From contig NZ_CP144373.1 of NCBI RefSeq assembly GCF_040450955.1, positions 186,001 through 250,000 on the forward strand: a DNA stretch of 64,000 bases. The letters run 5' to 3'. Positions 1,455 through 31,212 of the stretch are shown here, one piece after another. This DNA is from Thermodesulfovibrio sp. 3907-1M (lineage in GTDB: Bacteria; Nitrospirota; Thermodesulfovibrionia; Thermodesulfovibrionales; Thermodesulfovibrionaceae). The notes beneath the pieces were generated by a model. That model did no database searches. It saw only the letters and a program-made list of their open reading frames with translations, and had not been told where the DNA came from. The position numbers and the translations under genes were made by a program. Position 1 is the stretch's first letter. Each line of letters begins with the position of its first letter.

Positions 1455-1455
1455 G

Positions 1456-16594: not shown

Positions 16595-16608
16595 CTCCCG
16601 CTTTTTTG
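16582..16608 (+). terminator. Intrinsic terminator
   Basis: AGCGGGAG-ctaa-CTCCCGCT followed by TTTTT. The left arm contains the last codons and the loop the stop codon of the gene that it ends. Confidence 0.85.
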
Positions 16609-16620
16609 TTTTAAAATTTT

Positions 16621-16993
16621 TTATGATAAATAGAAGGTTAACAAAGGCATAACGGGTTGAGCAGGTAGAGGCATTTTATCAAGTTTTTCTTTTATAGATT
16701 TTCCTATCTCTTTTAATTTTTTTAACTGTTCGTCAGTCCACTTTATTTTCTTTATCCCTTCATATTTTTTTATTGTACTAAAATCAAGAGATTCACCTTT
16801 TCTGGATACATATAACATGGGTTCAGTTTCGAAATACACGAAATCAAGTAAGGCAGGTAATGATTCAATTCCCCATTTAGACCACAGTCTATTTAAATAA
16901 TTTTCAAGCATTGTATCTATATCGGGCTCTTCAGGTGCTTCTAAGAATAACTTTTTTATAGATTTTTCAGATGATATAGGCTCTGTTTTTTAG
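16621..16993 (-). pseudogene. Out-of-frame continuation of the helicase gene
   Basis: Going leftward from about 16993 this frame is open to 16621 (about 123 codons), including EPISSEKSIKKLFLEAPEEP before the first ATG at 16911. No ribosome-binding site is seen at 16911. Removing one A from the A6 run near 16986-16991 would join it to the helicase ORF. It lacks helicase motifs II-VI. It could instead be a separate small gene from 16911. Confidence 0.45.
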
Positions 16994-18919
16994 TGCGTAT
17001 AAATATAAAAATTCGGATGCAAGTAGAAATAAATTTTTTGTCTTTTCGTAGTTTGATTTCCAAAACTTAAATATACCTGCTTTGTCATTTATCCATTTGA
17101 AATGTTCACACTGTTCTATTTCAGCTAATTGTTCTTTTACTTGTATTAAATTGAAAGACAGAAGATAAGTTTTTAAGTTTTCTATAGTTTCTTCATTAAC
17201 AAAAAAGTCATGAGGCAAAGGTTCTTCAATGAAATTGATCAACTTCTCAATTTCTGGCATGGAGTTTTTAAAAACTTTACAATTTAGCAACTCTGTTGGG
17301 TTAAAGCTTAACATTTCAAAAAGTTTTCTATATTTAAGTACGAAATTTTCAATTAATATCTTGTCTTTATTAACAAAAAGAGAAAGTATTTTTTCTATAA
17401 GCGTTTTATTCTTTAGTTTTGAAGAAAGTCTTAAAAAATCTTCGTAAAATGTAGAAAACTGTTGGGAGTTTTTTAGTTCTACAAGTTTAGTTTTGTCTAA
17501 ATTCATGTTCAGAATTTGTTTTTCCCATTTTTCATACCGGTCTATAATATCTACCAAAAGCTTTAAGTTATCTCGGGCATGAAGTTTATATTTTTCTTCA
17601 AAATTTATTATTTTTTTTGTTATATCATTTATAATTTTATCTATATCCGAAGTGTCATAATTTAAATCTGATAGTTTTGAAATTTCTATTAACATTTTAT
17701 TTTTTAGATCGCTATATTTGTTTTTTAAATCTTTCAGTGTATTTAAAGAATCCATAAATTCATAATAATTTTGCAATATTTCTTCTTTTAAATTCTGGTA
17801 TTTTTCCTCAAGTTGTTGATTCCATTGTATGTTTTCAAGATGCGTGATGAAATTGCTTACTTTTCCTATAGATGCTGATATATTTTCTTTTTTACCACCA
17901 ATAAAGTAAAAGCCATCGTTTGTGTAGATAGGGAGTTTTTTTAGTTGAGGATTTTTATCAGCATCGATAAACTCTCTAGCGGCGTTTTCAACTGCCTTAT
18001 TTGCAGTTGAGGCTACCAAGATAAGGGTTGAATAATCTTCCCCGCCTTTTGCTATATTTATAGCTCTTTCTGTAAGAATGTTAGCAATGATAGACATTAG
18101 AATTGTTGTTTTGCCTGTTCCAGGAGGCCCCTGAACTGCAATAAGATTCTCTCCTTTGGCAAGTTTTTGTAACAGTATTCCCTGCCCATGGCTTAACTCA
18201 AAAGAATGAAATGTTCCATACCAAATTGTATCATCCGCTTTGTTGTAGTCTTCAAAACTTATCTGCTGCTTTTCGTATAAATATCTGTATGCCGCAGAAT
18301 TAGGAAACTTTTCGGGATCAAATTCATCTTTTTTAAGGACATTTAATTGTTTCTTTATCTTTACGCTTTCAATTATTTCTAATTTGCTGTCAAGAATTAT
18401 GAAATCTTTGTTCCAGAGTTCAAATTTACCAAAGGGATAATATACTTTTAACGTTCTTTTACAGTAATCTTTAAGATTTAAAAAAGCAGTAGCAAAATCA
18501 AGGTTTTCTACTTTTTCTTCCTTGAGAAGCTCTGTAACTATAAAAGTAAGAAGTGGCTTTTTAGTATCAAGACTGTCAAATTCATCAATATCCATTTTAA
18601 ATATATTGATAAATACGGGTTTACACACAACAAAGTTTGTAAGAGTAGCAGTATTAAAGCAAAAGCTATAAAAATTGTTATTTCCGTTTGATTCAAATAT
18701 TGGCATTATAATATCACCAATCTTTGCGGAAAAGTTTAAAACAAAAAGAGGGTAGTAATAGTAATCATTGTTTGAAATTTTTTCTCTGATAATTGGGAAA
18801 AGACAATAGAAAGTTTCTTCTCTGTCAAAATCATCGTCTAAAATTCTTTTTATTTTTTCTTTTATATCTGATTCTTTTTCGTTGAATTCATTATTAGAAG
18901 TTTTATTTTTTTTGGTCAA
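16967..18919 (-). CDS. Truncated UPF1/Dna2-type SF1 helicase (Walker A half)
   Basis: 650 aa from a TTG start. Residues about 225-300 carry the Q-like region and Walker A (VQGPPGTGKTTILMSIIANI), then ANKAVENAAREF (motif Ia region). A long coiled-coil-rich insertion fills the rest. No DEAx Walker B, GDxxQ or motif V/VI follows, so the C-terminal RecA domain of this family is missing. The frame ends in an A6 run, with an open continuation in another frame (see 16621-16993). Overlaps the upstream small gene by 17 bases. Probably a decayed or reduced helicase. Confidence 0.6.
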   Translation of the reverse strand: MTKKNKTSNNEFNEKESDIKEKIKRILDDDFDREETFYCLFPIIREKISNNDYYYYPLFVLNFSAKIGDIIMPIFESNGNNNFYSFCFNTATLTNFVVCKPVFINIFKMDIDEFDSLDTKKPLLTFIVTELLKEEKVENLDFATAFLNLKDYCKRTLKVYYPFGKFELWNKDFIILDSKLEIIESVKIKKQLNVLKKDEFDPEKFPNSAAYRYLYEKQQISFEDYNKADDTIWYGTFHSFELSHGQGILLQKLAKGENLIAVQGPPGTGKTTILMSIIANILTERAINIAKGGEDYSTLILVASTANKAVENAAREFIDADKNPQLKKLPIYTNDGFYFIGGKKENISASIGKVSNFITHLENIQWNQQLEEKYQNLKEEILQNYYEFMDSLNTLKDLKNKYSDLKNKMLIEISKLSDLNYDTSDIDKIINDITKKIINFEEKYKLHARDNLKLLVDIIDRYEKWEKQILNMNLDKTKLVELKNSQQFSTFYEDFLRLSSKLKNKTLIEKILSLFVNKDKILIENFVLKYRKLFEMLSFNPTELLNCKVFKNSMPEIEKLINFIEEPLPHDFFVNEETIENLKTYLLSFNLIQVKEQLAEIEQCEHFKWINDKAGIFKFWKSNYEKTKNLFLLASEFLYLYALKNRAYII

Positions 18920-19160
18920 TAAAATTATTTATTTCCTGTGAGTTTTTCACTGTTTGCGTAACTATATGTTTTATATAGTCAAGATTGTGGAATTTTATAA
19001 CTAACTCTGTACCATTTGATTTTATCATGCTGTTTATAATATTTAAGTCATTATAGTAAGTGTCATGTGGAACATTTTTTTCATTAATTTTTAAATTAAC
19101 TAATTCCTCTAATCTTATATATTCAAGCCACGCATTGATTAAATCAGAGTGCCTAAGCAA
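18903..19160 (-). CDS. Hypothetical small protein before the helicase
   Basis: 85 aa, TTG start with GGAGGT just upstream. Helical, charged, no recognised motif. Co-transcribed with the helicase gene (17-base overlap) from a box-type promoter at 19191-19207. Confidence 0.5.
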   Translation of the reverse strand: MLRHSDLINAWLEYIRLEELVNLKINEKNVPHDTYYNDLNIINSMIKSNGTELVIKFHNLDYIKHIVTQTVKNSQEINNFIDQKK

Positions 19161-19190
19161 TGTTTTACCTCCGTGGAAGGTGATTTATGC

Positions 19191-19240
19191 ATAAATATTA
19201 CTCATATAAAGAATTTTTTTTCAAGAGTAATATTTATTAA
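19191..19240. promoter_or_regulatory. Divergent pair of AGTAATATTTA promoter boxes
   Basis: On the - strand GAGTAATATTTAT lies at 19191-19203, upstream of the small gene and helicase. On the + strand TCAAGAGTAATATTTATTAA (19221-19240) abuts the ATG at 19241. On the + side TAATAT ends 7 bases before the ATG, which would give a leaderless mRNA. Confidence 0.55.
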
Positions 19241-20968
19241 ATGAGAGTAAAAAGGGCTTTTTCAAGTGCCATTCGCCCTGTTAAGGAAAAAGTGTACTTT
19301 TTCATCCCTTACAATGAAAGTATCATTTCTCTTTTTAAGCAACACAAGCTCAGATGGTCTCCAGAGTATCGTGCGTGGTATCTTGATTTAAATTATTTCT
19401 CATCTGTAGAAAATTTTATTGAGTCAAACAGTCAAATATTAAACCTTTATCCTGAAGAAGAGGTTATTTATCTTACGCAGTATCTTAAAGACTATTACAA
19501 CAAACTCAACAATGTTATAGAGTTAAGCAGAAAAGCAGATACAAACTTCCCTGTTCCTGTTCCTCAGGGTCTTTCCTATTATCCATATCAGCGTGCGGGG
19601 GTGGAATTCCTTGTTCGCAAGAAAAATGTTCTGCTTGCAGACTCAATGGGACTTGGTAAAAGCATTCAAACAGCTGGCTACTTTAACTGGCTTTTGAAAC
19701 AAAAAATCTACCCTAAAGCATTGGTAATCTGCCCTGCATCAGTAAAATACAATTGGCTTAAAGAATTAAATAAATGGCTAATTGAACCTTTAAAAATTGA
19801 AGTTGTTGAAGGTAAAAATGGATTCACTCAGGAAACTGCTGTTCATATTTACATTTTAAATTACGACATACTGAAGGATAAGCATTTTTACAACCTTAAC
19901 TGCATAGTGCTTGATGAAGCTCACTACATTAAAAATCCTGAAGCTCAAAGAACAAAGGAAGTTGTGAGAATTTGTAGAAGCAACCCCCACGCAAAAATCA
20001 TCGCCCTTACAGGAACTCCCATGCTTAACAGACCTGTGGAACTTTTCCCGATTCTTAATTTGTTATATCCTGAAAGGTTTAATGATTTCTTTAAGTTTAC
20101 TTTCAGATACTGTGCGGCACATAGAAAAGAAATACCGACAAAGCAGGGAATTAAAAAAGTATGGGACTTCTCTGGTGCATCAAACGTTGAGGAACTTGGA
20201 AGAATTCTAAGATCAACTGTAATGCTCAGAAGGGAGAAAAAGGATGTTCTCAGAGAATTGCCAGATAAAATTAGAACAGTTGTCCCTGTTAAACAAACTG
20301 TAAGCAACAGTTTCTTATCCCTTGAAGAAAGAACAAAAAACATTATAAACCAGATTCAGGAAATAAATAAGAAAATAAAGCAAATAAAGAAAGAAAACAA
20401 CAAAGAACTCTTACAGCAACTGAAAGCTGAAAAACTCCGCATACGCTCTGTTGCACTTCCATTAATAAACGAATACAGAAGAATGGCTTTTGAGGAAAAG
20501 AAGGATGTCATCGTGCAATTCCTTGAAGACACCCTTAACAATGAAAAAGTCGTTGTTTTTACACATCACAGAGATGTTGCAAAATTTTTCGGAGAAACAT
20601 TCCATCATCTCAAACCACCCGTTCTTACAGGGGAAACATCTGCAAGGGATAGACAGGCAATGGTTGAGTATTTTCAGTCTGGTAAATCTCCTCTGTTCAT
20701 AGCTACAATCATGGCTGCTGCTGAAGGCATTACACTTACTGAGGCAAGTACCGTTGTTTTTGCTGAATACGAATGGACTCCTGCGAAAATGCTACAAGCT
20801 GAAGATAGACTCCACCGTATCGGGCAGAAAAATACAGTCAACAGTTACTGGTTTGCACTGGTTAACAGTATAGATGAAATGTTCATCAATAAAATAGTGG
20901 AAAAACTTGAAATCCAGAAAAGTGTAATGATGGATAATGAATCTGAAGAAATTTTTATGATGGTTTAA
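19241..20968 (+). CDS. SNF2-family (SMARCAL1-like) DNA-dependent ATPase
   Basis: 575 aa. An N-terminal HARP-like region (residues about 10-65, with RWSPEYRAWYLDLNYF) precedes the SNF2 core: YPYQRAGVEFL, Walker A DSMGLGKSIQT, Walker B LDEAHYIKN, ALTGTPMLNRP, and motif VI EDRLHRIGQKN. Such proteins remodel or anneal DNA (fork reversal in the SMARCAL1 family). There is no Shine-Dalgarno before the ATG, consistent with a leaderless start. The function in the element may be replication or repair during transfer (inference). Confidence 0.85.
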   Translation: MRVKRAFSSAIRPVKEKVYFFIPYNESIISLFKQHKLRWSPEYRAWYLDLNYFSSVENFIESNSQILNLYPEEEVIYLTQYLKDYYNKLNNVIELSRKADTNFPVPVPQGLSYYPYQRAGVEFLVRKKNVLLADSMGLGKSIQTAGYFNWLLKQKIYPKALVICPASVKYNWLKELNKWLIEPLKIEVVEGKNGFTQETAVHIYILNYDILKDKHFYNLNCIVLDEAHYIKNPEAQRTKEVVRICRSNPHAKIIALTGTPMLNRPVELFPILNLLYPERFNDFFKFTFRYCAAHRKEIPTKQGIKKVWDFSGASNVEELGRILRSTVMLRREKKDVLRELPDKIRTVVPVKQTVSNSFLSLEERTKNIINQIQEINKKIKQIKKENNKELLQQLKAEKLRIRSVALPLINEYRRMAFEEKKDVIVQFLEDTLNNEKVVVFTHHRDVAKFFGETFHHLKPPVLTGETSARDRQAMVEYFQSGKSPLFIATIMAAAEGITLTEASTVVFAEYEWTPAKMLQAEDRLHRIGQKNTVNSYWFALVNSIDEMFINKIVEKLEIQKSVMMDNESEEIFMMV

Positions 20969-21161
20969 AAATTTTTCTCAGTTTCTTTCCAGACTTCTTT
21001 AAAGTTTTTCGATCAACAATAGACATTCCACATGTATTGCACTCATAAATTACATAATTAGAAATAGTTACAGATTTCCTTTTACAGAAAAGGGTTTCAT
21101 TTTTAATTTTCCTCTCCATTATTCCATCTTTGCAGAAAAGACACTTTTTAAATTTTTGCAT
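20955..21161 (-). CDS. YgiT-type double-CxxC zinc-finger protein
   Basis: 68 aa. CLFCKDGIMERK and YECNTCGMSIVDRK form two CxxC knuckles spaced as in the N-terminal zinc domain of MqsA/YgiT antitoxins, but no DNA-binding Xre domain follows. Tail-to-tail overlap of 14 bases with the SNF2 gene; 7 bases after the KOW gene, so likely the last gene of the parR operon or of the KOW transcript. Confidence 0.55.
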   Translation of the reverse strand: MQKFKKCLFCKDGIMERKIKNETLFCKRKSVTISNYVIYECNTCGMSIVDRKTLKKSGKKLRKIFKPS

Positions 21162-21168
21162 TTTTCAA

Positions 21169-21582
21169 TTAAAAAACACTAACAATTTTTTCAACTTCAT
21201 CATATTCAACAACGTCCTTTACAATTCTTCCCCAGACTGCTATCTCAACTTCAAGGTTCTGTTTATTTACAGTTTTTACAATTCCTACTAATCCCTCATA
21301 TTGTCCTTTAACGAATTTTACCGTGTCTCCTGCTTTAAATCCTGCAGAAGGAGTAACAACTTCCACAAGAGAATTAAACCCTTTAAGAAATTTTTTGAAA
21401 TCATCAACAATTTCAATATGAAAGTGTTTTTTTATCTCTTGAGGGATAAACTTTTGAGGGTCTTTCATAGTGATAACTGCCTCTGGGAATTCAGTATCAA
21501 AAACCAAACAATTTTCTTTTAATAAAAGACTTTTTAAAATTTTAATGTATTTAGCGTTTTTAGCATAAACAAGAAATGCCAT
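21169..21582 (-). CDS. Spt5/NusG-like KOW-domain protein
   Basis: 137 aa. The N-terminal half fits a degenerate NGN domain. The C-terminal KOW domain is clear: GFKAGDTVKFVKGQYEGLVG, with VEIAVWGRIVKDVVEYDEV after it, closer in style to archaeal Spt5 than to housekeeping NusG. NusG paralogues on mobile elements act as dedicated elongation or antitermination factors. No Shine-Dalgarno; GGTAATATT lies 7 bases before the ATG. Confidence 0.65.
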   Translation of the reverse strand: MAFLVYAKNAKYIKILKSLLLKENCLVFDTEFPEAVITMKDPQKFIPQEIKKHFHIEIVDDFKKFLKGFNSLVEVVTPSAGFKAGDTVKFVKGQYEGLVGIVKTVNKQNLEVEIAVWGRIVKDVVEYDEVEKIVSVF

Positions 21583-21600
21583 ATAGTGAATATTACCTTA
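21583..21600 (-). promoter_or_regulatory. Box-type promoter, leaderless start of the KOW gene
   Basis: Read on the - strand: AAGGTAATATTCACTAT directly before ATG 21582. It overlaps the parM stop. TAATAT ends 7 bases from the start codon. Confidence 0.4.
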
Positions 21601-22530
21601 TAACTGTTGCAAGTAAATTTTATACCCTCTTGCATTTGCAAATTGAGGCTCATCAGGGATAAAAGCTCCCTCTATCATATCCTTAACATATACAGCACCA
21701 CCACCGGTTATAACAATAGCTGAAATGGAATCAATTTCAAAGTAGTTGTTTTTAAGCGTAATTGAATACTCCTTTATTCTTCTTGCCAGTTCAGGGATAT
21801 AAAATTTTTCAAGAACATGTTGAGCGTCAAACTTATACTCTTTACCAAAATATGTAAAACTTCCCTTTTTTAATATTGACTCTGCAAGTACAGGGGTTAT
21901 AAATTCTCCGTACTTTTCTGAAAAATCAGAACAAATCCTGCTTAATAAAAGTTCCATCCCTGAAGGATAACTCTCCGAAGCTCTGGGAATAAACTTGCCT
22001 TCTTTTATGAAGATCATATCCACTGTGTAATAACCAATGTCTATTACAATTACATCCTTATCCACAAATTCAGGGTTGTTATATACAAAATCAATGTAAG
22101 CTCCCACTCCTTGCGGGACAAAAGCTACTTTATCAGGAATAGGGATAAAATTTTTGTTTATTGACAATTCTGCTCTTTCAAGATTGTTTCTGAGCAGTAT
22201 TGTTTTTCTTTCGTTATAAAGGGCAGGGGGCAATCCAAGTGCTATACCTGATAAAACAGAATTGGTTTTCCTGTATATTTCATTCAAACAGTATCCAATT
22301 ATCGCATAGTAAGACTCACTACCGACAAAATCTTTGGTTACCTGCATTCTGGGTAAAGCATCAGGACCAACAAGGTATCCATTGCCATTCACATACACAA
22401 CATCAGGAGACTTTCCAAATACTTTCTCAGAATGAATGTAAGGTTCCACAGTGGTTTTAAAAATGAATTGACCACCATCATAAACGACCTTTGTATAACC
22501 GTAGCCTATATCAATTCCTGCAAAACTCAT
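21598..22530 (-). CDS. parM: ParM-like actin-family segregation ATPase
   Basis: 310 aa. Actin-fold motifs: phosphate 1 GIDIGYGYTKVVYDG at the N terminus, phosphate 2 VIVIDIGYYTVDMIF (about residue 162), adenosine motif AIVITGGGAVYVKD near 275. ParM filaments push plasmid copies apart when capped by ParR bound at parC. GGAGG-type Shine-Dalgarno. Third gene of the operon parR-X-parM. Confidence 0.85.
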   Translation of the reverse strand: MSFAGIDIGYGYTKVVYDGGQFIFKTTVEPYIHSEKVFGKSPDVVYVNGNGYLVGPDALPRMQVTKDFVGSESYYAIIGYCLNEIYRKTNSVLSGIALGLPPALYNERKTILLRNNLERAELSINKNFIPIPDKVAFVPQGVGAYIDFVYNNPEFVDKDVIVIDIGYYTVDMIFIKEGKFIPRASESYPSGMELLLSRICSDFSEKYGEFITPVLAESILKKGSFTYFGKEYKFDAQHVLEKFYIPELARRIKEYSITLKNNYFEIDSISAIVITGGGAVYVKDMIEGAFIPDEPQFANARGYKIYLQQL

Positions 22531-22544
22531 TAAGGCATCCTCCT

Positions 22545-23276
22545 TTATAAAATTTTTTTAATAATGCTTTTTGAAAAGAAACTTTTCAGTATATTGAAGC
22601 TGGAAAAATCCATGTAAATAGTCTCAAGTTCGTTGCCCGATATTTCAATTTGCTTATTTTTTCTGTGGTTAATTAATTTGAAGTAGTTTGTGTAGTAATC
22701 TTTTTTCCAGCCAGAAGTGTCTTCTCTTTTTAATATTCTATTTTCAGGAATTATTTCTATATGCGGAAATTTCCTGAAAAGCAGGCTTTTTGTTTTCTCG
22801 TAAAGTTCTTTCAGTTTAAAATCTATCTGATACTCATTATATTCAACCCCGTGCAGGATCGCATCTCCTGTGCAATAAAATAAAACCTTTGCTATTGCAG
22901 TTCTGTGATTTCCCTCTCCTGAAATAAAAATTTTGTCATTTATTTTTGTGTAATGCATTACAGGTTCTTTTTTTGTTTTCTGAAAGTAGTAGTCAGGATT
23001 TTCAGCTAAAAGAGAAAGGTTTAAGGGCATTCTCTTACCTGCTTTAAGCATATCTATCCATGTTATTCCTATGTAATCAGGATGAGCAGTCCCTTTAACC
23101 TGAAAAACATTTACAGACTCAGAGTTTGACCAGTAATGGTAGGTTACAAACTTTTCCAGAGAACTTATTTCAGGATAAGGTTCAATGGTTTCATTTAAGA
23201 GACAGTTCTGTTTTTTTATCCATGCTATTACATCATCAGTATTGTTGGCTATAAGAAGATGTGGCTTTTCTAACAT
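22545..23276 (-). CDS. Unknown protein with ParB/Srx-like GxGNHR motif, between parR and parM
   Basis: 243 aa. The centre reads YTKINDKIFISGEGNHRTAI, which resembles the Gx(G/N)HR loop of the ParB/sulfiredoxin fold (nuclease or nucleotide-binding). The remainder is unfamiliar and very basic near the C terminus. It overlaps the parR stop by one base and lies 14 bases before parM, so it is made together with both. Fold and role are inference. Confidence 0.5.
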   Translation of the reverse strand: MLEKPHLLIANNTDDVIAWIKKQNCLLNETIEPYPEISSLEKFVTYHYWSNSESVNVFQVKGTAHPDYIGITWIDMLKAGKRMPLNLSLLAENPDYYFQKTKKEPVMHYTKINDKIFISGEGNHRTAIAKVLFYCTGDAILHGVEYNEYQIDFKLKELYEKTKSLLFRKFPHIEIIPENRILKREDTSGWKKDYYTNYFKLINHRKNKQIEISGNELETIYMDFSSFNILKSFFSKSIIKKIL

Positions 23277-23614
23277 TAAAAACCTCCAAAGAGCTTAGAA
23301 ATATTTAACCTTGTTTTTTCTTTATTATTAACTTCCTGATTATTAACTTCTTGAATATCAACTGCTTGATTATTAATTACCTGATGATTTTGAACAGGAG
23401 TCTCTTGTTTTTTATTGTTGATATTTACCTGTTCGGATAAATTTAAATTTTTACTTTGAGATTGAGTTAAGACATAGTTCACCAGATTTGAACTCACAAT
23501 CCTCACCACTTCAACCAAAAATTGAGACCTAAAAGCTTTAGGGACTCTTTCAATAATTTGAATAACATCCAAATCTGTTTCGGTGTCTAATGTGAATTTA
23601 AATGTCTTTTTCAT
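23276..23614 (-). CDS. parR: ParR-like centromere-binding adaptor
   Basis: 112 aa. The N-terminal about 45 residues look like a ribbon-helix-helix ParR domain (FKFTLDTETDLDVIQIIERV, AFRSQFLVEVVRIV). A low-complexity Asn/Gln/Val linker built of repeated 'NNQEV' follows, then a C-terminal hydrophobic tail LNISKLFGGF, as expected for the ParM-binding peptide of ParR. The iteron region lies immediately upstream. The start codon is 6 bases from a TAATAT box. Confidence 0.75.
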   Translation of the reverse strand: MKKTFKFTLDTETDLDVIQIIERVPKAFRSQFLVEVVRIVSSNLVNYVLTQSQSKNLNLSEQVNINNKKQETPVQNHQVINNQAVDIQEVNNQEVNNKEKTRLNISKLFGGF

Positions 23615-23631
23615 AGTTATATATTACTTTT
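23615..23631 (-). promoter_or_regulatory. Box-type promoter of the parR-X-parM operon
   Basis: Read on the - strand: GCAAAAGTAATATATAACT directly before ATG 23614; TAATAT ends 6 bases from the start codon and no Shine-Dalgarno is present. It lies next to the iterons, so ParR binding would repress it (inference from ParMRC systems). Confidence 0.5.
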
Positions 23632-23657
23632 GCAGTCTTAAGATTAATTGTAAATGC

Positions 23658-23859
23658 AGGTAAAGATAGGGTAAGGATAAGGTAAGGATTGATAAAGATA
23701 GGGTAAGGGCGGGTAAAGACCGGGTAAGGACTTTTTTAATCATCTTTTATTGAGGGAAAGTGCTTTACCTATACTTTACCCGCCCTTACACATACTTTAA
23801 CTGTCTTTACCTATACTTTAGCAATCCTTATCTGAGTTCTAAAGACCGGGTTAGGACTT
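23658..23859. repeat. parC: parC-like centromere: two opposed iteron arrays
   Basis: Array 1 (23658-23731): seven 10-11 bp repeats around GGGTAAGGATA or GGTAAAGATA. Array 2 (23762-23833): about seven repeats of the same kind in opposite orientation. A further near-copy (19 of 20 bases) of 23714-23733 stands at 23840-23859. Helical spacing and a place upstream of parR match R1-type parC, which also has two blocks of 11-bp repeats. Confidence 0.75.
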
Positions 23860-24120
23860 CTTGAAGAGTTTTTGGGTTAAAAATTCTTTTCTTGGTGTCC
23901 CTTGAGGGTAAAGGTATAAATCATTATTTTCAAAGACCCAAATTCTGCCACAATTGATACAAATAAACATTTTTGAAAAATATTTTTTAGGTTTCTTACC
24001 ATTAGCTAAAGCCTTTTCTGGATTATAGCGTTTAGGAATGTCTAACTTATCTGCCATATACAGAAATCCATCACAACGGGGACAGCGGAAAGAAAAATCA
24101 TAATCACCATTTTTTCGCAT
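23851..24120 (-). CDS. Zinc-ribbon protein
   Basis: 89 aa. CPRCDGFLYM near residue 13 and CINCGRIWVFE near 53 form a four-Cys zinc ribbon. A basic PKRYNPEKALANGKKPKKY stretch lies between them. AAAGGGGG Shine-Dalgarno. Possible nucleic-acid binder; the family is unknown to me. Confidence 0.55.
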   Translation of the reverse strand: MRKNGDYDFSFRCPRCDGFLYMADKLDIPKRYNPEKALANGKKPKKYFSKMFICINCGRIWVFENNDLYLYPQGTPRKEFLTQKLFKKS

Positions 24121-24155
24121 AAAACCCCCTTTGTTTTTAGTTTTTTGGCAAATTA

Positions 24156-24192
24156 ATTATTACCTCATAAAGCAAAGAGTAATATATAAATA
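24156..24192. promoter_or_regulatory. Divergent promoter boxes
   Basis: On the - strand GAGGTAATAATTA (about 24154-24166) serves the zinc-ribbon gene. On the + strand CAAAGAGTAATATATAAATA (24173-24192) serves the gene at 24344. Confidence 0.45.
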
Positions 24193-24198
24193 GCACTA

Positions 24199-24343
24199 AG
24201 TTAAGTAGATCACTCGAACAATACCCTTTCCCCTCCGAAGGGTTTTTCTCCCATTAGGGAGAAATTCATTCCTTCTGGAGGGCTTAATTTCGTAAATAAG
24301 CCGCATTAGCGGCTCAAAAATAAAACCTTCAGGAGGAAAAAAA
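24199..24343 (+). promoter_or_regulatory. Structured 5' leader (copy B) with hairpins
   Basis: AGTTAAGTAG at 24199-24208 and TCGAA at 24214-24218 match leader copies A, C and D. The stem-closing pair appears to change from G-C to A-T here. Three hairpins follow: ACCCTT/AAGGGT (24223-24243) running straight into TTTTT like a terminator, TTTCTCCC/GGGAGAAA (24245-24264), and AGCCGC/GCGGCT (24299-24314). The first could be an attenuator. Confidence 0.5.
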
Positions 24344-24676
24344 ATGGTTGAAAGAATTGAAAACTTAAGAAAACTTTTAAGCAGTCTTTCACTCCCAGCA
24401 GAGAAAGCACAGGAAATAATTAACAATGAACCGCTGTTCTTCTACATCAATACCAGAAAATTCGGGTTCACTTGTTTGATTGGAACAATTACCAACAGTG
24501 CATCACGCAAGGTCTTTGAATATTTTGAAGCATTTCAAGAATTTGGGGAAGTGGATATTCAAGATAGTGGGATTGCAAGAATTGTAAAAATTTATGGAGT
24601 TACAGAAGATTTAGAAAAAATTAAAGAAATAGTTATGACTATCAAAAAAACCTTAAAAAAAGAAAGGGGGATTTAA
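24344..24676 (+). CDS. Hypothetical protein of the leader regulon
   Basis: 110 aa, AGGAGG Shine-Dalgarno. Helical start (MVERIENLRKLLSSLSLPAE), then a mixed alpha/beta part with FGFTCLIGTITNSAS and a Lys-rich C terminus. Not recognised. The long structured leader suggests tight post-initiation control. Confidence 0.5.
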   Translation: MVERIENLRKLLSSLSLPAEKAQEIINNEPLFFYINTRKFGFTCLIGTITNSASRKVFEYFEAFQEFGEVDIQDSGIARIVKIYGVTEDLEKIKEIVMTIKKTLKKERGI

Positions 24677-24691
24677 TCCCCCTCTTTTCTT
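24662..24691 (+). terminator. Intrinsic terminator
   Basis: AGGGGGATTTAATCCCCCT followed by CTTTTCTTT, overlapping the end of the gene at 24344. Confidence 0.8.
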
Positions 24692-24695
24692 TATG

Positions 24696-24932
24696 TTATT
24701 TTTTCTCTTTTTTTCTTTTATATCTATCCAAACTCACTATTTTGCATGTATGGATATGTGAACCACTTAACATATATTGCTTAAACAGATTCATAATTTC
24801 CCTTTTCTTTTCTCCTACAATTTCCTCTCCATCTCCATTAAAAAGTCTGCCATCAGGGTTATCAGGATTCCAGTCCCTCAAAAAGTCTGCCAGACCATTA
24901 TCGTTAATATTATTAACATTTCTTGTTTTCAT
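24696..24932 (-). CDS. Hypothetical small protein
   Basis: 78 aa. Polar N terminus (NVNNINDNGLADFLRDWNPD) and a very basic end (RYKRKKEKK). Start overlaps the upstream stop (TAGATG). Last of three - strand genes. Unknown. Confidence 0.45.
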   Translation of the reverse strand: MKTRNVNNINDNGLADFLRDWNPDNPDGRLFNGDGEEIVGEKKREIMNLFKQYMLSGSHIHTCKIVSLDRYKRKKEKK

Positions 24933-25183
24933 CTATCCTCCCTATTTATTTCATTTACAAATTTTAAAAATTCCTGTAAATCCTGTTTGGCTATTTTTTC
25001 TGCTTCTTCCAGGGGATAACCATCCTGAAGGTATGCTTTCAGTAATTCCATCTCTTGTTCCTCAGGGGTAGTATTCTCATCTCCAAGATTTATTATCCGA
25101 TAATAGAATTTATCCTCAAGCATCTTTTTAACCAATTTTTTTTCTATTTCGTTGGGTTTATATTTAAAAGCACTTTCTGCCAT
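24929..25183 (-). CDS. Small acidic protein, paralogue of its upstream neighbour
   Basis: About 84 aa from ATG 25183, just past the neighbour's stop; the longer TTG frame from 25222 would overlap it. The part TTPEEQEMELLKAYLQDGYP parallels TEEEEEMALFEGFLKEGYP of the next gene, followed in both by an EEAE/DVAEKKAR helix. Tandem duplication is likely. Function unknown. Confidence 0.5.
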   Translation of the reverse strand: MAESAFKYKPNEIEKKLVKKMLEDKFYYRIINLGDENTTPEEQEMELLKAYLQDGYPLEEAEKIAKQDLQEFLKFVNEINREDR

Positions 25184-25196
25184 CATTAACTCTCTT

Positions 25197-25481
25197 TTAT
25201 TCCCTGAAAAGTCTTTCTTCAATTTTTAACCACTCTCTGGCTTTTTTCTCTGCCACATCTGGAGGGTAGCCTTCCTTGAGAAATCCTTCAAAAAGTGCCA
25301 TCTCTTCTTCCTCTTCTGTCATTGTTTCATCTGTTATAACTATCGCACTTGTTATCGGTTCACCGCTTTCTCTCGCAGCATTCAGTATCTGGTTCAAGAT
25401 TTCCTGACATGTTATCGCTGCACGAGGGTCTCTTTTTTTCATTTCCTGAAGTACTTTATAATTATCAGCTCTTTCAGCCAT
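25197..25481 (-). CDS. Small acidic protein (first tandem copy)
   Basis: 94 aa, GGAGG Shine-Dalgarno. Helical, very acidic around residue 55-70, with the motif FLKEGYPPDVAEKKAREWL shared with the downstream paralogue. The promoter probably lies near 25540 (TTGACA on the - strand). Confidence 0.5.
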   Translation of the reverse strand: MAERADNYKVLQEMKKRDPRAAITCQEILNQILNAARESGEPITSAIVITDETMTEEEEEMALFEGFLKEGYPPDVAEKKAREWLKIEERLFRE

Positions 25482-25684
25482 GATTGACCTCCTTGGTTTA
25501 TTTTAAAAAAGCTATGCTCTCTTTTTTATTTTACTTCTTCTTGTCAAAGATCAAATATCTTATTTTTATTATATACAATGCATATACCTATGTCAAGCCC
25601 TTTATTTTTAGTTGACAATTCAAATAAAATCTGTTATTGTTATCCATAACCCTTTGATTTTTCAATGAAAGGAGGTGAAAAAAT

Positions 25685-25957
25685 ATGACAAAAACTGAAT
25701 TAATCAGTGCTGTTGCAAAGAAAGCTGATTTAACAAAAGCTGAATCTGCAAGGGCTATTGATGCTATTGTTGAGTCAATAACTGAGGCTCTCAAGAAAAA
25801 CAATAAAGTCAGCCTTGTAGGATTTGGAACATTTTCTGTTGTACAGAGAAAAGCAAGAAAAGGCAGGAATCCCAAAACAGGAAAGGAAATTAAAATCCCT
25901 GCAACAAAAGTACCAAAATTTTCAGCAGGTAAAAGCTTGAAAGAGGCTGTTAAATAG
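25685..25957 (+). CDS. hup: HU-family DNA-binding protein
   Basis: 90 aa, full length for HU. MTKTELISAVAKKADLTKAE, VSLVGFGTFSV, RKGRNPKTGKEIKIPA (the minor-groove arm) and FSAGKSLKEAV are all present. AAAGGAGGTG precedes the ATG. Encoded on the element, it may assist recombination, replication or silencing. Confidence 0.95.
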   Translation: MTKTELISAVAKKADLTKAESARAIDAIVESITEALKKNNKVSLVGFGTFSVVQRKARKGRNPKTGKEIKIPATKVPKFSAGKSLKEAVK

Positions 25958-25964
25958 CTTTTTC

Positions 25965-25992
25965 ACACGGGCAGGTCATTGCCTGTCCGTGT
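25965..25992 (+). terminator. Hairpin between hup and a convergent gene
   Basis: ACACGGGCAGG-tcattg-CCTGTCCGTGT (one mismatch), followed by a modest T-rich stretch. The - strand gene ends inside its loop. Confidence 0.6.
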
Positions 25993-26146
25993 ATTCCTTT
26001 ATTATCCTTGCAAATGCTTCTCTTGCCAGCTCTGTAACTGTTCTTCCTTGTTTCTCTGCGATTGCCTTTAGTTGCTGAGCTATTTCTTCTGTAACGTTGA
26101 TGTGCAAAAGTATAGGTCTTTTCCTTGTTGGTTTTTGTTTTTTCAT
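25976..26146 (-). CDS. Ribbon-helix-helix regulator (CopG/Arc-like)
   Basis: About 56 aa from ATG 26146; the TTG at 26182 adds an unlikely tail. The pattern KRPILLHINVTEEIAQQLKA then GRTVTELAREAFARIIKEY is a canonical RHH domain. No Shine-Dalgarno: TACAAT ends 6 bases before the ATG with TTGCAA about 18 bases further up, so a leaderless transcript is plausible. Confidence 0.75.
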   Translation of the reverse strand: MKKQKPTRKRPILLHINVTEEIAQQLKAIAEKQGRTVTELAREAFARIIKEYTDRQ

Positions 26147-26190
26147 ATAATCATTGTATATGCAAACTGAAGTTTTTTGCAAATTTCTAC

Positions 26191-26210
26191 CAAAAAGTAA
26201 TAATATAATA
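26191..26210 (+). promoter_or_regulatory. Box-type promoter upstream of leader C
   Basis: CAAAAAGTAATAATATAATA, the shared box; the conserved leader begins 12 bases after TAATAT. Confidence 0.45.
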
Positions 26211-26217
26211 AAGCCGG

Positions 26218-26442
26218 AGTTCAGTAGGGGCTGTCCGAATAAAAAATCAGGTTAGCCTTAACAGGCTTTTCTCTTTTCACCTTTCTTTGTCTCATTGAGT
26301 AGGGAGCAATCCCGAATTTTTTTTGAACCTTCCGCTCAGAAGGGAAGGAGGGTTTTATGATTTTTTGCACATTTTAACACTTTTTTTTTGACATAACATA
26401 TAAGTATTTATATGTCTATCAATCAAACAGGGGGTGTTTTTT
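26218..26442 (+). promoter_or_regulatory. Long structured 5' leader (copy C)
   Basis: AGTTCAGTAGGGG at 26218-26230 and CCGAA at 26235-26239. Then an attenuator-like hairpin AGCCT/AGGCT with TTTCTCTTTT (26254-26277). Then a second GAGTAGGG...CCCGAA element followed by eight T (26297-26324). Then hairpin CCTTCC/GGAAGG (26328-26348). A separate TTGACA (26388-26393) and the palindrome ACATATAA-gtat-TTATATGT (26396-26415) form an inner promoter with operator just before the gene. Confidence 0.5.
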
Positions 26443-26850
26443 ATGAAAGTTAAAAATTCTGCTCTCGTTGACCTTATCCTCTCCTATCAGGAGAAAGAGC
26501 GTTTGTACATCTTATTGGATATTCTTATCAATCTCTCAGAACAGGAAAGGCGTGCACTTTTTAAAAAAGTTTTCTCTGCACTTCCTATTAGGGAAAGGAA
26601 AAAGCTTTCCACTCTGTTAACAGGGCTTACGATAAGCAATGCCCGTTGGAGTCGTATTAACAATTGGATGGAAAAGACATTGACCAACAATTTCTCGCTT
26701 ACACCGTACAGGGTAGCCATGATTGGAATGAACTATTTCAGGATGAATCGTAAGATGAAACCGTTTATGATAGCACTGGCGAGGAAAGTGAAAGCAAGGG
26801 TAAGGTACAGACTTAATGGGAGTAATACAAAAGCAGATACATCAAAGTAG
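26443..26850 (+). CDS. Hypothetical basic helical protein
   Basis: About 135 aa; ATG 26443 follows AGGGGGTG, and the GTG at 26434 lies within that Shine-Dalgarno. Strongly basic and helical (LPIRERKKLSTLLTGLTIS, MNRKMKPFMIALARKVKARV). Possibly a nucleic-acid binder, but no family is recognised. Preceded by the longest leader of the regulon. Confidence 0.5.
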   Translation: MKVKNSALVDLILSYQEKERLYILLDILINLSEQERRALFKKVFSALPIRERKKLSTLLTGLTISNARWSRINNWMEKTLTNNFSLTPYRVAMIGMNYFRMNRKMKPFMIALARKVKARVRYRLNGSNTKADTSK

Positions 26851-26898
26851 GCTTACCGAATAAAACCAATCCATCAAAATCTATTCAAGGAGGTCAAT
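26821..26898 (+). promoter_or_regulatory. Box plus leader element (copy D) inside a gene end
   Basis: AGTAATAC at 26821-26828, then ATCAAAGTAGG (26841-26851) and CCGAATAAAA (26855-26864). The layout equals copies A-C, but it lies across the stop codon of the preceding gene, giving the Nmad1-like gene its own start. Confidence 0.4.
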
Positions 26899-27129
26899 AT
26901 GCTTAAGAGAGAAATTTTAAGTGCAATAGCGTCTGAAGTTCAAACGCTGTTGCTGAAGAAGAACGCTGATTATGGTAACAGTTATTTTGAACTCAGGGAA
27001 GAATTTGGAGAAATAGCGTTCATAGTAAGACTTGTTGACAAAGTGGCAAGACTGAAGACATTGATGAAACAGGATGCACGAGTAGAAGAAAGTAAAAAGG
27101 AGGGAGCATGGGGTACATTAGGATATTAA
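26899..27129 (+). CDS. Nmad1/DUF1599-like small protein
   Basis: 76 aa, AAGGAGG Shine-Dalgarno. KKNADYGNSYFELREEFGEI followed by RLVDKVARLKTLM has the 'KN.DYG...G...R..DK..R...L' pattern I associate with the nucleotide-modification-associated domain 1 / DUF1599 group seen in phages. Overlaps the next gene by 22 bases. Confidence 0.55.
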   Translation: MLKREILSAIASEVQTLLLKKNADYGNSYFELREEFGEIAFIVRLVDKVARLKTLMKQDARVEESKKEGAWGTLGY

Positions 27130-27440
27130 AGAGAGACGCTAAGAAAATACTTTTAGATGATAGTATGACATACTTGTTTTTGCTGAATAAACAAAACAAA
27201 GGGAAAATTTTGTATATAAAAACTGAGGCTCTAATTAGTTTTTTGGAGGCAAATGGCATAGAAATAACAAATGAAGAACTAAAAGATTTAGAAATGAAAT
27301 TAAAGGAAGAAAGAAAAAAATGGTGGCATAATTATAGAAAAATATTGTATCAGAGGAATCAAGTCAACAAAAGCACACTTAAAGGACAACCCGAAGAAAA
27401 AGATAAAGAAAAAGTTGAAGAACTGGAATGTGTAGTATAA
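27108..27440 (+). CDS. Hypothetical charged protein
   Basis: 110 aa; AAAAGGAGGG before ATG 27108. Alpha/beta start (MGYIRILKRDAKKILLDDSM), then a very Lys/Glu-rich C-terminal half. Translationally coupled to the preceding gene. Unknown. Confidence 0.5.
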   Translation: MGYIRILKRDAKKILLDDSMTYLFLLNKQNKGKILYIKTEALISFLEANGIEITNEELKDLEMKLKEERKKWWHNYRKILYQRNQVNKSTLKGQPEEKDKEKVEELECVV

Positions 27441-27492
27441 AGACAATTTATTAAATATAAAAATCAAAAAAAACTTAAAAGGAGGTTTTTGT

Positions 27493-27858
27493 ATGCAAAA
27501 AATTATTGAAATAGAAACAAAAAAATTTTCTATAAACAGACAAATAATTTGCGACATGTGCAACAATTATCTTTATACAGACTCTTACGAAGCAGAAAAA
27601 ATTTATGCGGTATTTTGGGTTGAACGAGGTGGTAACATTTATTTAGAGAAATATGTTTGTGAAAGTTGTTATAAAGAATATTTTTCTGACAAAAAAACCA
27701 TTCCATTCAACGAAAGTCCTAAACCTTTTCAGAGAGCACTAATAAGAGATTTAAAACGTAATTGGTATGGGGTAATAGTTTCTCTCAATTCTGTAGATGA
27801 TTTTAAACTTTTACAAGAGAACCCACATTTATTGGAAGTATTAGGAGAAAAGTTTTAA
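27493..27858 (+). CDS. Four-Cys zinc-binding protein
   Basis: 121 aa. ICDMCNNYLYTDSYEAEKIY and YVCESCYKEYF form two CxxC pairs about 35 residues apart, a treble-clef or ribbon layout. The remainder is helical. AAAAGGAGG Shine-Dalgarno. Unknown accessory gene. Confidence 0.5.
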   Translation: MQKIIEIETKKFSINRQIICDMCNNYLYTDSYEAEKIYAVFWVERGGNIYLEKYVCESCYKEYFSDKKTIPFNESPKPFQRALIRDLKRNWYGVIVSLNSVDDFKLLQENPHLLEVLGEKF

Positions 27859-27872
27859 GCAAGGAGGTTAAT

Positions 27873-28061
27873 ATGCTTACCAAAGAGACAATAAAAGAAA
27901 TAATAAAAGAAAGTCCTCTGATTGTTTTATTTACCCCGCAGGAAGTAGAAAATGTTGTTGAAGAAATTTACAACAAATATATCAATGTAAACAAAACTGA
28001 TGTTGACACAACAAATTTAAAAGGAGGAGAGCATGCAACTTTTTGGTTTCCATGTAGATGA
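27873..28061 (+). CDS. Hypothetical small protein
   Basis: 62 aa, AAGGAGG Shine-Dalgarno. Amphipathic N terminus (KETIKEIIKESPLIVLFTPQ). The last residues are encoded over the next gene's Shine-Dalgarno and start (29-base overlap), so translation may be coupled. Confidence 0.45.
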   Translation: MLTKETIKEIIKESPLIVLFTPQEVENVVEEIYNKYINVNKTDVDTTNLKGGEHATFWFPCR

Positions 28062-28263
28062 CATTATAGAATTAGACGAAGGTTTTGATCGTAAATGTGG
28101 TTATTGTAACTGGGAGACTTCAGTTTTCTACTGGCTTGCAGATTCCAGAGAAGAAGCGATACAGGGAATAAAAGCAATTTTAGCCTTCGGTGGTTCACCC
28201 CTTTGTGGTGATTGTATGTGTGAGCTGCTGGTTGAAGAAGGATATGAAATAACAAAACAATAA
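28033..28263 (+). CDS. Small Cys-rich protein
   Basis: 76 aa; AAAAGGAGG before the ATG. CGYCNWETSVFYWLADSREE and CGDCMCELLVEEGYE give a probable zinc site. Ends at a hairpin terminator. Confidence 0.5.
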   Translation: MQLFGFHVDDIIELDEGFDRKCGYCNWETSVFYWLADSREEAIQGIKAILAFGGSPLCGDCMCELLVEEGYEITKQ

Positions 28264-28284
28264 GAGAGGGGTTTATCCCCTCTC
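28264..28284 (+). terminator. Terminator-like hairpin
   Basis: GAGAGGGG-tttat-CCCCTCTC just after the stop codon; the T tract after it is poor (TATGTTGT). Confidence 0.6.
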
Positions 28285-28325
28285 TATGTTGTCAAGAATT
28301 TAATGATTTTTTATGGGGGTACAGC

Positions 28326-28421
28326 ATGGATGAAAGAATTTCATATATTATTAGAGAATATGTAGAAGAAGACTCTTTCTTTACTCTGTTGAGATTGCTT
28401 AAGGTACCAAAAAATTTATAA
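28326..28421 (+). CDS. Mini-ORF, 31 aa
   Basis: MDERISYIIREYVEEDSFF... from ATG 28326, with GGGGG 6 bases upstream, ending just before a strong terminator. It stands alone between two terminators and could be a real micro-protein. Coding evidence is limited to start context and position. Confidence 0.35.
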   Translation: MDERISYIIREYVEEDSFFTLLRLLKVPKNL

Positions 28422-28431
28422 CCAAAAAAAT

Positions 28432-28466
28432 AAGCCAAAATTTTAATTATCTTTGGCTTTTTTTAT
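28432..28466 (+). terminator. Intrinsic terminator
   Basis: AAGCCAAA (28432-28439) and TTTGGCTT (28452-28459) followed by TTTTTATT. Confidence 0.8.
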
Positions 28467-28497
28467 TGTTATATAAAAAAACAAAAAAGGAGGAAAT

Positions 28498-28998
28498 ATG
28501 CATAGCAGAGTATTTTGTTTTGCAAAAAATCTTGATGAAATAAGGGATATTTATGATTCAATTTCAGAGGAAGACATAGTTGAAGAAATTAGAGGAGTTG
28601 ATTATGCAGTGGTAACGGATGAATTTGAAGGTGATATAAGATGGCTTGCAGAAGTGTATGAAATACCGGAAGATGACATAAAAATTGAAACATATGAAGT
28701 AGATGGTGAAAAAATAAAAATAGCCAGAATAAAGGTAAGGCATCTACTTGCTGCTCTTAAAAAAGAAAGGGGAAGAAGATTTGAAGCCATTTGTAAGGAA
28801 CTTGAGAAGGAACATCCAAGTTTATTTGAGATAGCCCGTAAAGCTTATCTTGAGAAAGGGTTTTACGCATACATTCCTGACTGGGGAATAGAACCAATGT
28901 TCATAATTCCTGAAATCGTAAAAAAGTATCCTTCCTATTTTGAAAATAATTTTAAGGAAGAAGTTTACATTTATAAAATTTTTGATTATCATTTCTAA
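28498..28998 (+). CDS. Hypothetical protein
   Basis: 166 aa, AAAAGGAGG Shine-Dalgarno. Acidic alpha/beta start (LDEIRDIYDSISEEDIVEE, then VDYAVVTDEFEGDIRWL), later helical and aromatic (YIPDWGIEPMFIIPEIV). No family recognised. Followed by AAAGGAGG and an 8-codon stub (29016-29042), perhaps a cut-off gene. Confidence 0.5.
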   Translation: MHSRVFCFAKNLDEIRDIYDSISEEDIVEEIRGVDYAVVTDEFEGDIRWLAEVYEIPEDDIKIETYEVDGEKIKIARIKVRHLLAALKKERGRRFEAICKELEKEHPSLFEIARKAYLEKGFYAYIPDWGIEPMFIIPEIVKKYPSYFENNFKEEVYIYKIFDYHF

Positions 28999-29029
28999 GC
29001 AACAAAGGAGGAGAGGATGGATATAAAAG

Positions 29030-29227
29030 TTAGTCATCTATAACAGCAAGATGAACCCCTAATGAATGCAAAATTACTTTTGCAGTATTTTTTGACGTTC
29101 TTATGCTATTTTCAAGAGACGTAACGTATGAAGTTGTTATACCAACTTTTTTAGCCACTTGTTCTTGAGTTAACCCTCTTTTTAGCCGAGCAAATTTGAT
29201 AATACAAGCAAGCCTTTCAAATTCCAT
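29030..29227 (-). CDS. XRE-family HTH regulator
   Basis: 65 aa. FARLKRGLTQEQVAKKVGIT followed by YVTSLENSIRTS is a standard Cro/C1-type helix-turn-helix filling most of the protein. AGGAGAG Shine-Dalgarno. Lies downstream of the UvrD-like gene on the same strand; could control the accessory module. Confidence 0.8.
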   Translation of the reverse strand: MEFERLACIIKFARLKRGLTQEQVAKKVGITTSYVTSLENSIRTSKNTAKVILHSLGVHLAVIDD

Positions 29228-29259
29228 ATTTCTCTCCTTTTTTTTTGAATTCTTCTATT

Positions 29260-31086
29260 TTATATATATGCATTTTTTATATAATCAAAAAATTTCCCCG
29301 GAGCTGACCCCTGTCTGCTGCCAAATCTTTCCCTTGTTTTACAGGCACTGAGGAACAGATACTTTTTTGCCCTTGTTACTGCAACGTAAAAGCATCTGAC
29401 TTCCTCATCAAACTCACATCTGACATCAGGGAAAATACCTCTTTCCAGCGAGGGTAAGAACACGGCGTCAAACTCAAGTCCCTTTGCTGTGTGAACAGTC
29501 ATCAGCTTGACTGCCTGTCGTTCGCTTCTGTTTCCATTGTAAAGAAGAGTATCATCAATGAAATCCTTAAGACTTTTATATCTCTTTAACAAGACAAAAA
29601 GTTCTTTTATGGAAGCAAACCTGTCCTCACAATCGTCTTTGAATTTTTCTTTAAGGTAATCAACATAGCTGGTTGTTTTAACAACTATATTTAAAGCCTG
29701 AGCAGGATCATTTAAGAATCCCTGAAGATACTCTATAAACCTTACAAAACTTAAGAGAGCATCCCTTTTGTTCCCTTTAGCTGTGTTTGCATAAACCTTT
29801 GTTGCTTTAAGGTAGTCTGTTTCGTTTAACTCTGCTATTTGCTTTAAAGTTTTTTCTCCTATCCTTCTTGGTGGCGTTGTGATGGCTCTCTCAAAGGAAA
29901 CGTAATCCGATGGGTTATAAGCAAACTTGAGATAGGAAAGAACATCCCTGACTTCAGTTCTTTTAAAGAAATCGTAATCATCCACGTCGTCAAGTAAAAT
30001 ACCTGCTCTGGCAAAAACTTCTTTGATTGCAGGCTTAATGTATCTTGCCCTTACAAGTATGGCAATCTGAGAAAGTGAGAAACTCTCAGTCAGTGCTTTA
30101 ACATTGTTTAAAATCCATAATGCCTCAGAGTGTTCATCCTCATGGAGAGCAATTTTTACTGTACCCTCATCGGTTTTTGTGTTCTTCAATTTAACAACAA
30201 GTGACTTCCATTTTTCGTCTATCAATTCTGAAACAGTATTTGCAACGTGAAGAACCACTTTACAGCTCCGGTAATTTTCCTCAAGTTTTATAATCTTTGG
30301 ATTAAACTCATTGATAAACTTCAAAATATTGTCAACAACCGCTCCTCTGAAACCGTAAATACTCTGCTGTGGGTCTCCAACTGCTGTAATGTTGCCATTC
30401 TTTGTTATGCTTTTTACGATGGAGTATTGAATTGGAGACGTATCCTGAAACTCATCTATAAGAATGTAATCAAACATATATTTAAAGTAGTTACTTATTT
30501 CAGGATTTGCAAGTAATTTATATGCAAAAAGCTGAATGTTGTCAAAATCAACGGCATTGCATTGAATGAGTGCGGATTCGTATGTTTTGTAAATTTTCAG
30601 TTCCCTGTAATCCTGAAAAACGGAATCATTTATCTCTCCGTGTTGTTTGAGGTATGAAATTCTTTTAAACAGATTTAGAGCCTGGTCCTGGTCAAAGTAG
30701 TTGTCCTTACAAACTTTCTTAAACAGTTTAAATGCCTCATCTTCGTCATAAACAATGAAATCAGGTTTAAGTCCGTTGTTGAGAAACTTTACAAAACTTC
30801 TTACTATCTTGAGGCAAAAACTGTGAAAAGTGGAAATCCATCTTGACTCAACTCCTGTATATTTAAAAACTCTCTCTTTCATCTCATTGGCAGCTCTTTT
30901 CGTGAAGGTGATGGCAAGAATTTTATGTGGGGGATAGTTGTTTTCAATCAAATAAGATACCTTATGAGTGATGACTCTTGTTTTACCACTTCCTGCACCT
31001 GCAAGAACGAGGAGAGGTTTTTCGGTAAAACGAACTGATTGCAGTTGAGAATAGTTAAGTTCCGCTGTTTTATAAGCTGTTTTCAC
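29260..31086 (-). CDS. UvrD/Rep-family SF1A DNA helicase
   Basis: 608 aa from a GTG start. All motifs are present: Q region LNYSQLQSVRF, Walker A LVLAGAGSGKTRVI, Ia ITFTKRAANEMKERV, II YILIDEFQDTSPIQ, III AVGDPQQSIYGFRGA, IV LEENYRSCKVVL, V VKLMTVHTAKGLEFDAVFLP, VI RCFYVAVTRAKKYLFLS. A 3'-5' helicase, probably for element replication or transfer. No Shine-Dalgarno: GTAATATTTATTA abuts the GTG. Confidence 0.9.
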   Translation of the reverse strand: MKTAYKTAELNYSQLQSVRFTEKPLLVLAGAGSGKTRVITHKVSYLIENNYPPHKILAITFTKRAANEMKERVFKYTGVESRWISTFHSFCLKIVRSFVKFLNNGLKPDFIVYDEDEAFKLFKKVCKDNYFDQDQALNLFKRISYLKQHGEINDSVFQDYRELKIYKTYESALIQCNAVDFDNIQLFAYKLLANPEISNYFKYMFDYILIDEFQDTSPIQYSIVKSITKNGNITAVGDPQQSIYGFRGAVVDNILKFINEFNPKIIKLEENYRSCKVVLHVANTVSELIDEKWKSLVVKLKNTKTDEGTVKIALHEDEHSEALWILNNVKALTESFSLSQIAILVRARYIKPAIKEVFARAGILLDDVDDYDFFKRTEVRDVLSYLKFAYNPSDYVSFERAITTPPRRIGEKTLKQIAELNETDYLKATKVYANTAKGNKRDALLSFVRFIEYLQGFLNDPAQALNIVVKTTSYVDYLKEKFKDDCEDRFASIKELFVLLKRYKSLKDFIDDTLLYNGNRSERQAVKLMTVHTAKGLEFDAVFLPSLERGIFPDVRCEFDEEVRCFYVAVTRAKKYLFLSACKTRERFGSRQGSAPGKFFDYIKNAYI

Positions 31087-31104
31087 TAATAAATATTACT
31101 TTTG
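31087..31104 (-). promoter_or_regulatory. Box-type promoter, leaderless start of the UvrD-like gene
   Basis: Read on the - strand: GGCAAAAGTAATATTTATTA then GTG. TAATAT ends 6 bases before the start codon; the same layout as at 19240 and 23615. Confidence 0.5.
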
Positions 31105-31212
31105 CCTATAAAATAGAGGTAAGTGTGAAAAAATTTTGCATTAACCACATGTGGATAGTAGTGGTTTATCTATCTCTTTGTTTTTTCTTCCTTTTTTTGA
31201 TAGAACACCCAT

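Follow-up and report, generated by a model that had tools for sequence, protein, structure and literature searches.

The two opposed iteron arrays upstream of a parR candidate in Thermodesulfovibrio sp. 3907-1M are best explained as the parC-like centromere and operator of a type II actin partition locus on a conjugative element integrated at tRNA-Pro, a reading to which we assign a probability of about 0.8. We analyzed a 64-kb stretch of contig NZ_CP144373.1 (hereafter, the window; G000:C1:186001-250000) from the source genome (G000), which is 1.94 Mb in a single contig. In function, the locus would be an ordinary type II partition system; its opposed centromere and gene order are unusual. 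From the sequence, we infer ParR binding, ParM filaments, repression of the operon, and use of the locus in an excised phase.

Opposed iteron arrays upstream of a parR candidate

The intergenic stretch contains the following features (window coordinates).

23657..23731, + strand: proximal iteron array; seven 10-11 bp units with core GGTAARGAY, read directly as tandem repeats
23732..23760, no strand: 29-bp spacer separating both arrays, from unit positions
23761..23834, - strand: distal iteron array; seven opposed units, five clear and two degenerate
23838..23857, + strand: outer unit pair, inside a 19/20 copy of 23714-23733 (direct repeat D5)

The first-pass annotation had reported 10-11 bp repeats in two opposed arrays, with seven units facing about seven and a near-exact 20-bp copy further out, and all three points were borne out by the unit positions (seven on the + strand; seven on the - strand, including the two degenerate ones). 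Proximal units start at 23657, 23668, 23679, 23689, 23700, 23710, and 23721 (steps of 11, 11, 10, 11, 10, and 11 bp), and their + strand 11-mers are CAGGTAAAGAT, AGGGTAAGGAT, AAGGTAAGGAT, TTGATAAAGAT, AGGGTAAGGGC, CGGGTAAAGAC, and CGGGTAAGGAC. Distal units start at 23761, 23772, 23782, 23793, 23803, 23814, and 23824 (steps of 11, 10, 11, 10, 11, and 10 bp), with - strand 11-mers TAGGTAAAGCA, CGGGTAAAGTA, TGTGTAAGGGC, CAGTTAAAGTA, TAGGTAAAGAC, TTGCTAAAGTA, and CAGATAAGGAT. Together, the proximal and distal arrays form an inverted repeat (I1) with 48-nt arms that are 75% complementary. The 20-bp copy, matching at 19 of 20 positions in the + direction, comprises TAAAGACCGGGTAAGGACTT at 23714 and TAAAGACCGGGTTAGGACTT at 23840 (23840-23859), and the outer unit pair overlaps the final bases of a zinc-ribbon ORF (23851-24120). 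The alternating 11/10-bp steps in both arrays correspond to one helical turn, giving a period of 10.5/21 bp.

When the 236-bp intergenic stretch was compared with 1000 exact dinucleotide shuffles of itself, self-matches were in excess at lag 21 (102 observed vs 57.7 ± 6.5 shuffled; z = 6.8), lag 11 (99 vs 60.1; z = 6.1), and lag 10 (z = 5.2), and 13 clustered near-identical 7-mers were observed where the shuffles had a mean of 5.9 and a maximum of 11. None of the 1000 shuffles equaled the observed lag self-matches or 7-mer clustering. The array is essentially unique in the genome: exact tandem pairs of the iteron unit occur four times in the whole 1.94 Mb, and three of these are at this array. 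It occupies the whole gap 5' of the parR candidate. A promoter consensus scan of the spacer and arrays gave no match above chance, which we counted against the centromere reading.

Genes of the locus and the element that carries it

The order claimed from the letters alone (array, parR, a further gene, parM) was confirmed, with all three genes on the - strand and transcribed away from the array.

23276..23614, - strand: parR candidate, 112 aa; N-terminal ribbon-helix-helix pattern and C-terminal tail ending in KLFGGF
22545..23276, - strand: 243-aa gene between parR and parM; overlaps the parR stop (TAATG); GEGNHRTAIAK motif
21598..22530, - strand: parM candidate, actin-like ATPase, 310 aa; Pfam ALP_N 3.7e-13, MreB-like_C 3.1e-12
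21169..21582, - strand: KOW/NusG-like protein after parM, 137 aa; NusG 5.9e-6, below the cut-off

The 310-aa ParM candidate is clearly an actin of the ALP family, as judged from its sequence: profile matches include pCBH ParM (1.7e-30) and R1 ParM (1.6e-4), and its nucleotide-binding motifs (DIGYGYTK, DIGYYTVD, and GGGA) are conserved. A strong ribosome-binding site, AAAGGAGGA, accompanies its gene. In viral contigs, a single-sequence search gave no relative and a profile search gave only distant ParM relatives; the genome-contig scan yielded two distant matches only.

The parR candidate, whose start lies 43 bp from the first array unit, had no significant Pfam or NCBIfam match, which again counted against the centromere reading, and its best profile match among solved structures, pB171 ParR/StbB (2jd3), was weak (E 0.12-0.26). 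However, its residues 1-70 match the N-termini of fused proteins that are otherwise ParM (E about 2e-6 in G001/G005 and 6e-5 in G014; see below), a "Rosetta stone" link that supports its identity as ParR. An alignment of the window ParR, the fused N-termini, and the candidates from genomes G217 and G399 has a beta-strand/helix/helix pattern with invariant P and R. Ends of the KLFGGF type recur in other ParR candidates (VLGGFLE, ILGGFSGEL), and the tail is consistent with a role in binding ParM.

The intervening 243-aa protein has no Pfam family match; its GEGNHR motif was likened to ParB/sulfiredoxin-type proteins by eye only. Homologs were found in other genomes and on plasmids of Phaeobacter and Pseudomonas aeruginosa (pUM505, for instance); they form a mobile-element family with an invariant G.HR motif. 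None of the homologs examined adjoins parR or parM; they sit beside topA (as on pUM505) or transfer genes on other elements, so we rejected the gene as a fixed fourth component, and it is more likely cargo or an accessory gene inserted here. Beyond the array, window positions 24696-26850 hold small genes (78, 97, 94, 68, and 138 aa) whose order is kept beside the fused gene in G001/G005, and the set is partly present near parR in G399.

In the proposed mechanism, neighboring ParR dimers would each occupy one 10.5-bp unit, and hence one helical turn, and 14 (or 16) of them may coil the DNA into a ring or a helix. The opposed orientation would be acceptable because the ribbon-helix-helix dimer is two-fold symmetric. 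ParR tails, with their KLFGGF end, would cap and hold ParM filaments, which would drive apart a pair of excised circles of the element, and ParR binding at the array would also repress the parR-243-parM operon.

The locus lies within an integrative conjugative element (ICE), delimited as follows.

G000:C1:141454-217275 (window part 1..31275), no strand: ICE, 75.8 kb, from tRNA-Pro to the first inner att copy
31205..31275, + strand: attR, tRNA-Pro 3'-end copy at the right end of the element; copies match at 98-100%

An intact tRNA-Pro(TGG) is present at G000:141420-141496, and 60-71 bp copies of its 3' end (att) were found at G000:141454-141513 and at window positions 31205-31275 and 35599-35661. 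A 391-aa tyrosine recombinase (integrase) is encoded beside the tRNA-Pro, left of the window. F-type transfer genes occur both inside the window (TraU, TraE, TrbI/TraB, and TraG_N) and in the part of the element to its left (TraC, TraN, and a TraD-type coupling protein); no relaxase was found among the proteins scanned. The tRNA-Pro and its left flank are conserved in other genus members; beside the tRNA-Pro of those members, the element's left end was not detected, apart from 195 bp that match in G007. Adjoining the main element, window positions 31276-35661 form a further segment bounded by two tRNA-Pro att copies; this segment may be a remnant or a tandem accretion. In another species of the genus (G002), tRNA-Pro att copies at C1:1544386 and C1:1595589 are 51 kb apart and represent another element at the same site.

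The tRNA-Pro, att copies, integrase, and F-type transfer genes thus support the earlier description of a type II partition system on an integrated element, whose excision is likely from its anatomy. Its further assertion that the system implies a phase of autonomous replication was an overreach: a DNA clamp, a primase, helicases, and a 9 x 39-bp tandem array point to replication functions, but no replication initiator was identified, and we grade a replicative phase as plausible. The tandem array, at G000:C1:172405-172754 (window -13595 to -13246), consists of nine perfect 39-bp units, each containing the palindrome TTGACTAAAATGGTCAA, directly 5' of a RecD-like helicase gene, and is a candidate replication or transfer origin. 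With this locus, an F-type element joins the conjugative elements that probably pass through a plasmid-like phase.

The iteron units might instead serve ParR repression with no part in DNA segregation, for example if the element is never maintained outside the chromosome. Such a role fits an array directly 5' of parR and an element that is integrated in the sole genome carrying it; moreover, an ICE can lose its partition locus with little consequence (SXT/R391, PMC4489591), and chromosomal ParMs with possible non-plasmid roles have been reported (PMC12270681). Yet sixteen phased units in two blocks far exceed the needs of an operator, an intact-looking ParM and ParR tail are retained, and in known type II systems, the operator and the centromere are the same DNA. 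We consider a purely regulatory array unlikely.

Alternatively, array-bound ParR and ParM could serve to place the element for conjugative transfer instead of separating daughter copies. Precedents come from R1, whose partition proteins reportedly enhance conjugative transfer (PMC4949242), and from R391, whose transfer was down 4-14 fold in srpR/srpM deletions (PMC4489591). The sequence, however, does not separate transfer from segregation, and both could hold; we regard this explanation as rather improbable and prefer a segregation centromere.

Relatives with split and fused ParR and ParM

The centromere reading gains independent support from G217, a genome from the same order but a different family. 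It carries a homologous parR-parM pair with ten 20-bp direct repeats (TAAGGTAATGTAAAGTCATA type) immediately 5' of parR, that is, an array at the same place as in the window. A motif matrix derived solely from the 14 units of the window and scanned on G217 and six other loci gave 12 matches within 220 bp at the G217 array, which are mutually dependent as the array is self-repeating (its position is independent), compared with 3 to 6 matches in the densest 220 bp of the six other loci. All G217 matches are oriented to parR like the proximal array of the window. In G399 and G194, where parR also precedes parM, no comparable array was seen. We rejected as very improbable the idea that the window units are replication-origin iterons (oriV) for an initiator instead of ParR: iteron origins are also marked by short tandem repeats and the element has replication genes, but no initiator gene adjoins the array, the unit is 10.5 bp vs about 20 bp, a homologous array with this motif is linked to parR in G217, and the nine 39-bp units are a better origin candidate.

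In three genomes of the same genus, ParR and ParM are fused in one frame (413 aa in G014 and 382 aa in both G005 and G001).

L010:7931-9172: fused ParR-ParM gene (L010 = G014)
L011:6398-7546: fused ParR-ParM gene
L012:8329-9477: fused ParR-ParM gene

In the fused frame, a ribbon-helix-helix-like domain comes first and ParM second; a strong ribosome-binding site precedes the ribbon-helix-helix start. G005 and G001 are separate assemblies; their 4-kb modules are 98.6% alike and the surroundings differ. The G005 frame has no in-frame ATG, GTG, or TTG between codons 44 and 212, so free ParM cannot start at the usual place; in two of the three fused genomes, a start codon permitting free ParM is absent. 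In G014, a GTG preceded by GAGGGAG lies exactly at the expected ParM start, so that free ParM could be made from this internal codon besides the fused product. Among the N-terminal extensions that we read in other long ParM frames of the phylum (e.g., L052 and L053), none showed a ribbon-helix-helix pattern. In a likelihood tree, the three fused ParMs group together (83/83) and are sister to the window ParM (100/100 for the four), and the unfused G217 and G399 ParMs fall outside this group, so a single fusion event suffices.

No window-like array was found near the fused genes, by matrix scan for L010 and L011 and by reading the short upstream gap for L012. ParM in this clade is therefore not always accompanied by the array, which argues against the centromere reading. 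We tentatively entertain, as a possibility below even odds, that the sister clade is a single-protein actin segregation system, in which a ribbon-helix-helix domain joined to actin would let each filament subunit bind DNA with no parC nearby, G014 possibly having both fused and free ParM; the split genes and opposed array of the window would then represent that lineage in its three-part state. The literature searched, with subscription papers mostly outside its reach, held no description of a ParR-ParM fusion. The natural series from split genes with an array to fused genes without one offers a way to test adaptor versus centromere roles in actin-driven segregation, and the fused sister forms most deserve follow-up.

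Two further observations concern the surroundings of the fused genes. In L011 and L012, the ribosome-binding site of the fused gene lies within a near-perfect stem (CCTCCTTCAG ... CTTGAAGGAGG) 5' of the gene, which suggests translational control. At L010:5622-5705, about 2.2 kb from the G014 fused gene, four 22-bp iterons (ACCGTATCATAACATGTC type) are found beside a gene for a 276-aa protein; these are possibly a replication origin and its initiator.

Comparison with known partition systems

In R1, parM precedes parR. The first-pass label of "R1-like" holds in part: the window locus shares with R1 ParMRC two blocks of about 11-bp units, an actin-like ParM, a ParR candidate with a ribbon-helix-helix pattern, and a site 5' of the operon, whereas its arrays are opposed, parR comes first, and an extra gene separates parR and parM. 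The R1 parC comprises ten direct repeats, five plus five, flanking the promoter (PMC5016525); in contrast, the window has seven units opposed to seven, plus two, with no recognizable promoter between, and R1-type parC, defined by direct repeats in both blocks that flank a promoter, does not describe it.

Type II partition on integrative conjugative elements is already known from SXT/R391, where srpMRC stabilizes plasmids and SrpR binds srpC (PMC4489591). Like the window locus, srpMRC is a type II locus on an integrated conjugative element with direct and inverted repeats in its site, but srpC has four 13-bp repeats, SrpR is without homology to known ParR, and the order is srpM-srpR-int. The pSK41 parC shares the ~10/20 bp helical spacing and is wrapped by ParR; it consists of continuous 20-bp repeats (PMC5016525), as in G217, vs the opposed arrays of the window. 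By profile, the closest solved ParM is that of the Clostridium botulinum plasmid pCBH, on which the order is parC-parM-parR.

According to a 2022 study, every ParR characterized so far binds directly repeated sequences (PMC9426499), such as the 17-bp direct repeats of the C. perfringens centromere (PMC9426499). Exceptions include inverted or palindromic repeats, namely those of SXT/R391 (PMC4489591) and the palindromic repeats of a chromosomal Clostridium botulinum site (PMC12270681). Two full opposed arrays raise the question of whether reversed polarity allows a ring of ParR to close. Since described type II centromeres are mostly direct repeats, the two complete opposed arrays of the window represent a layout variant rather than a new kind of centromere.
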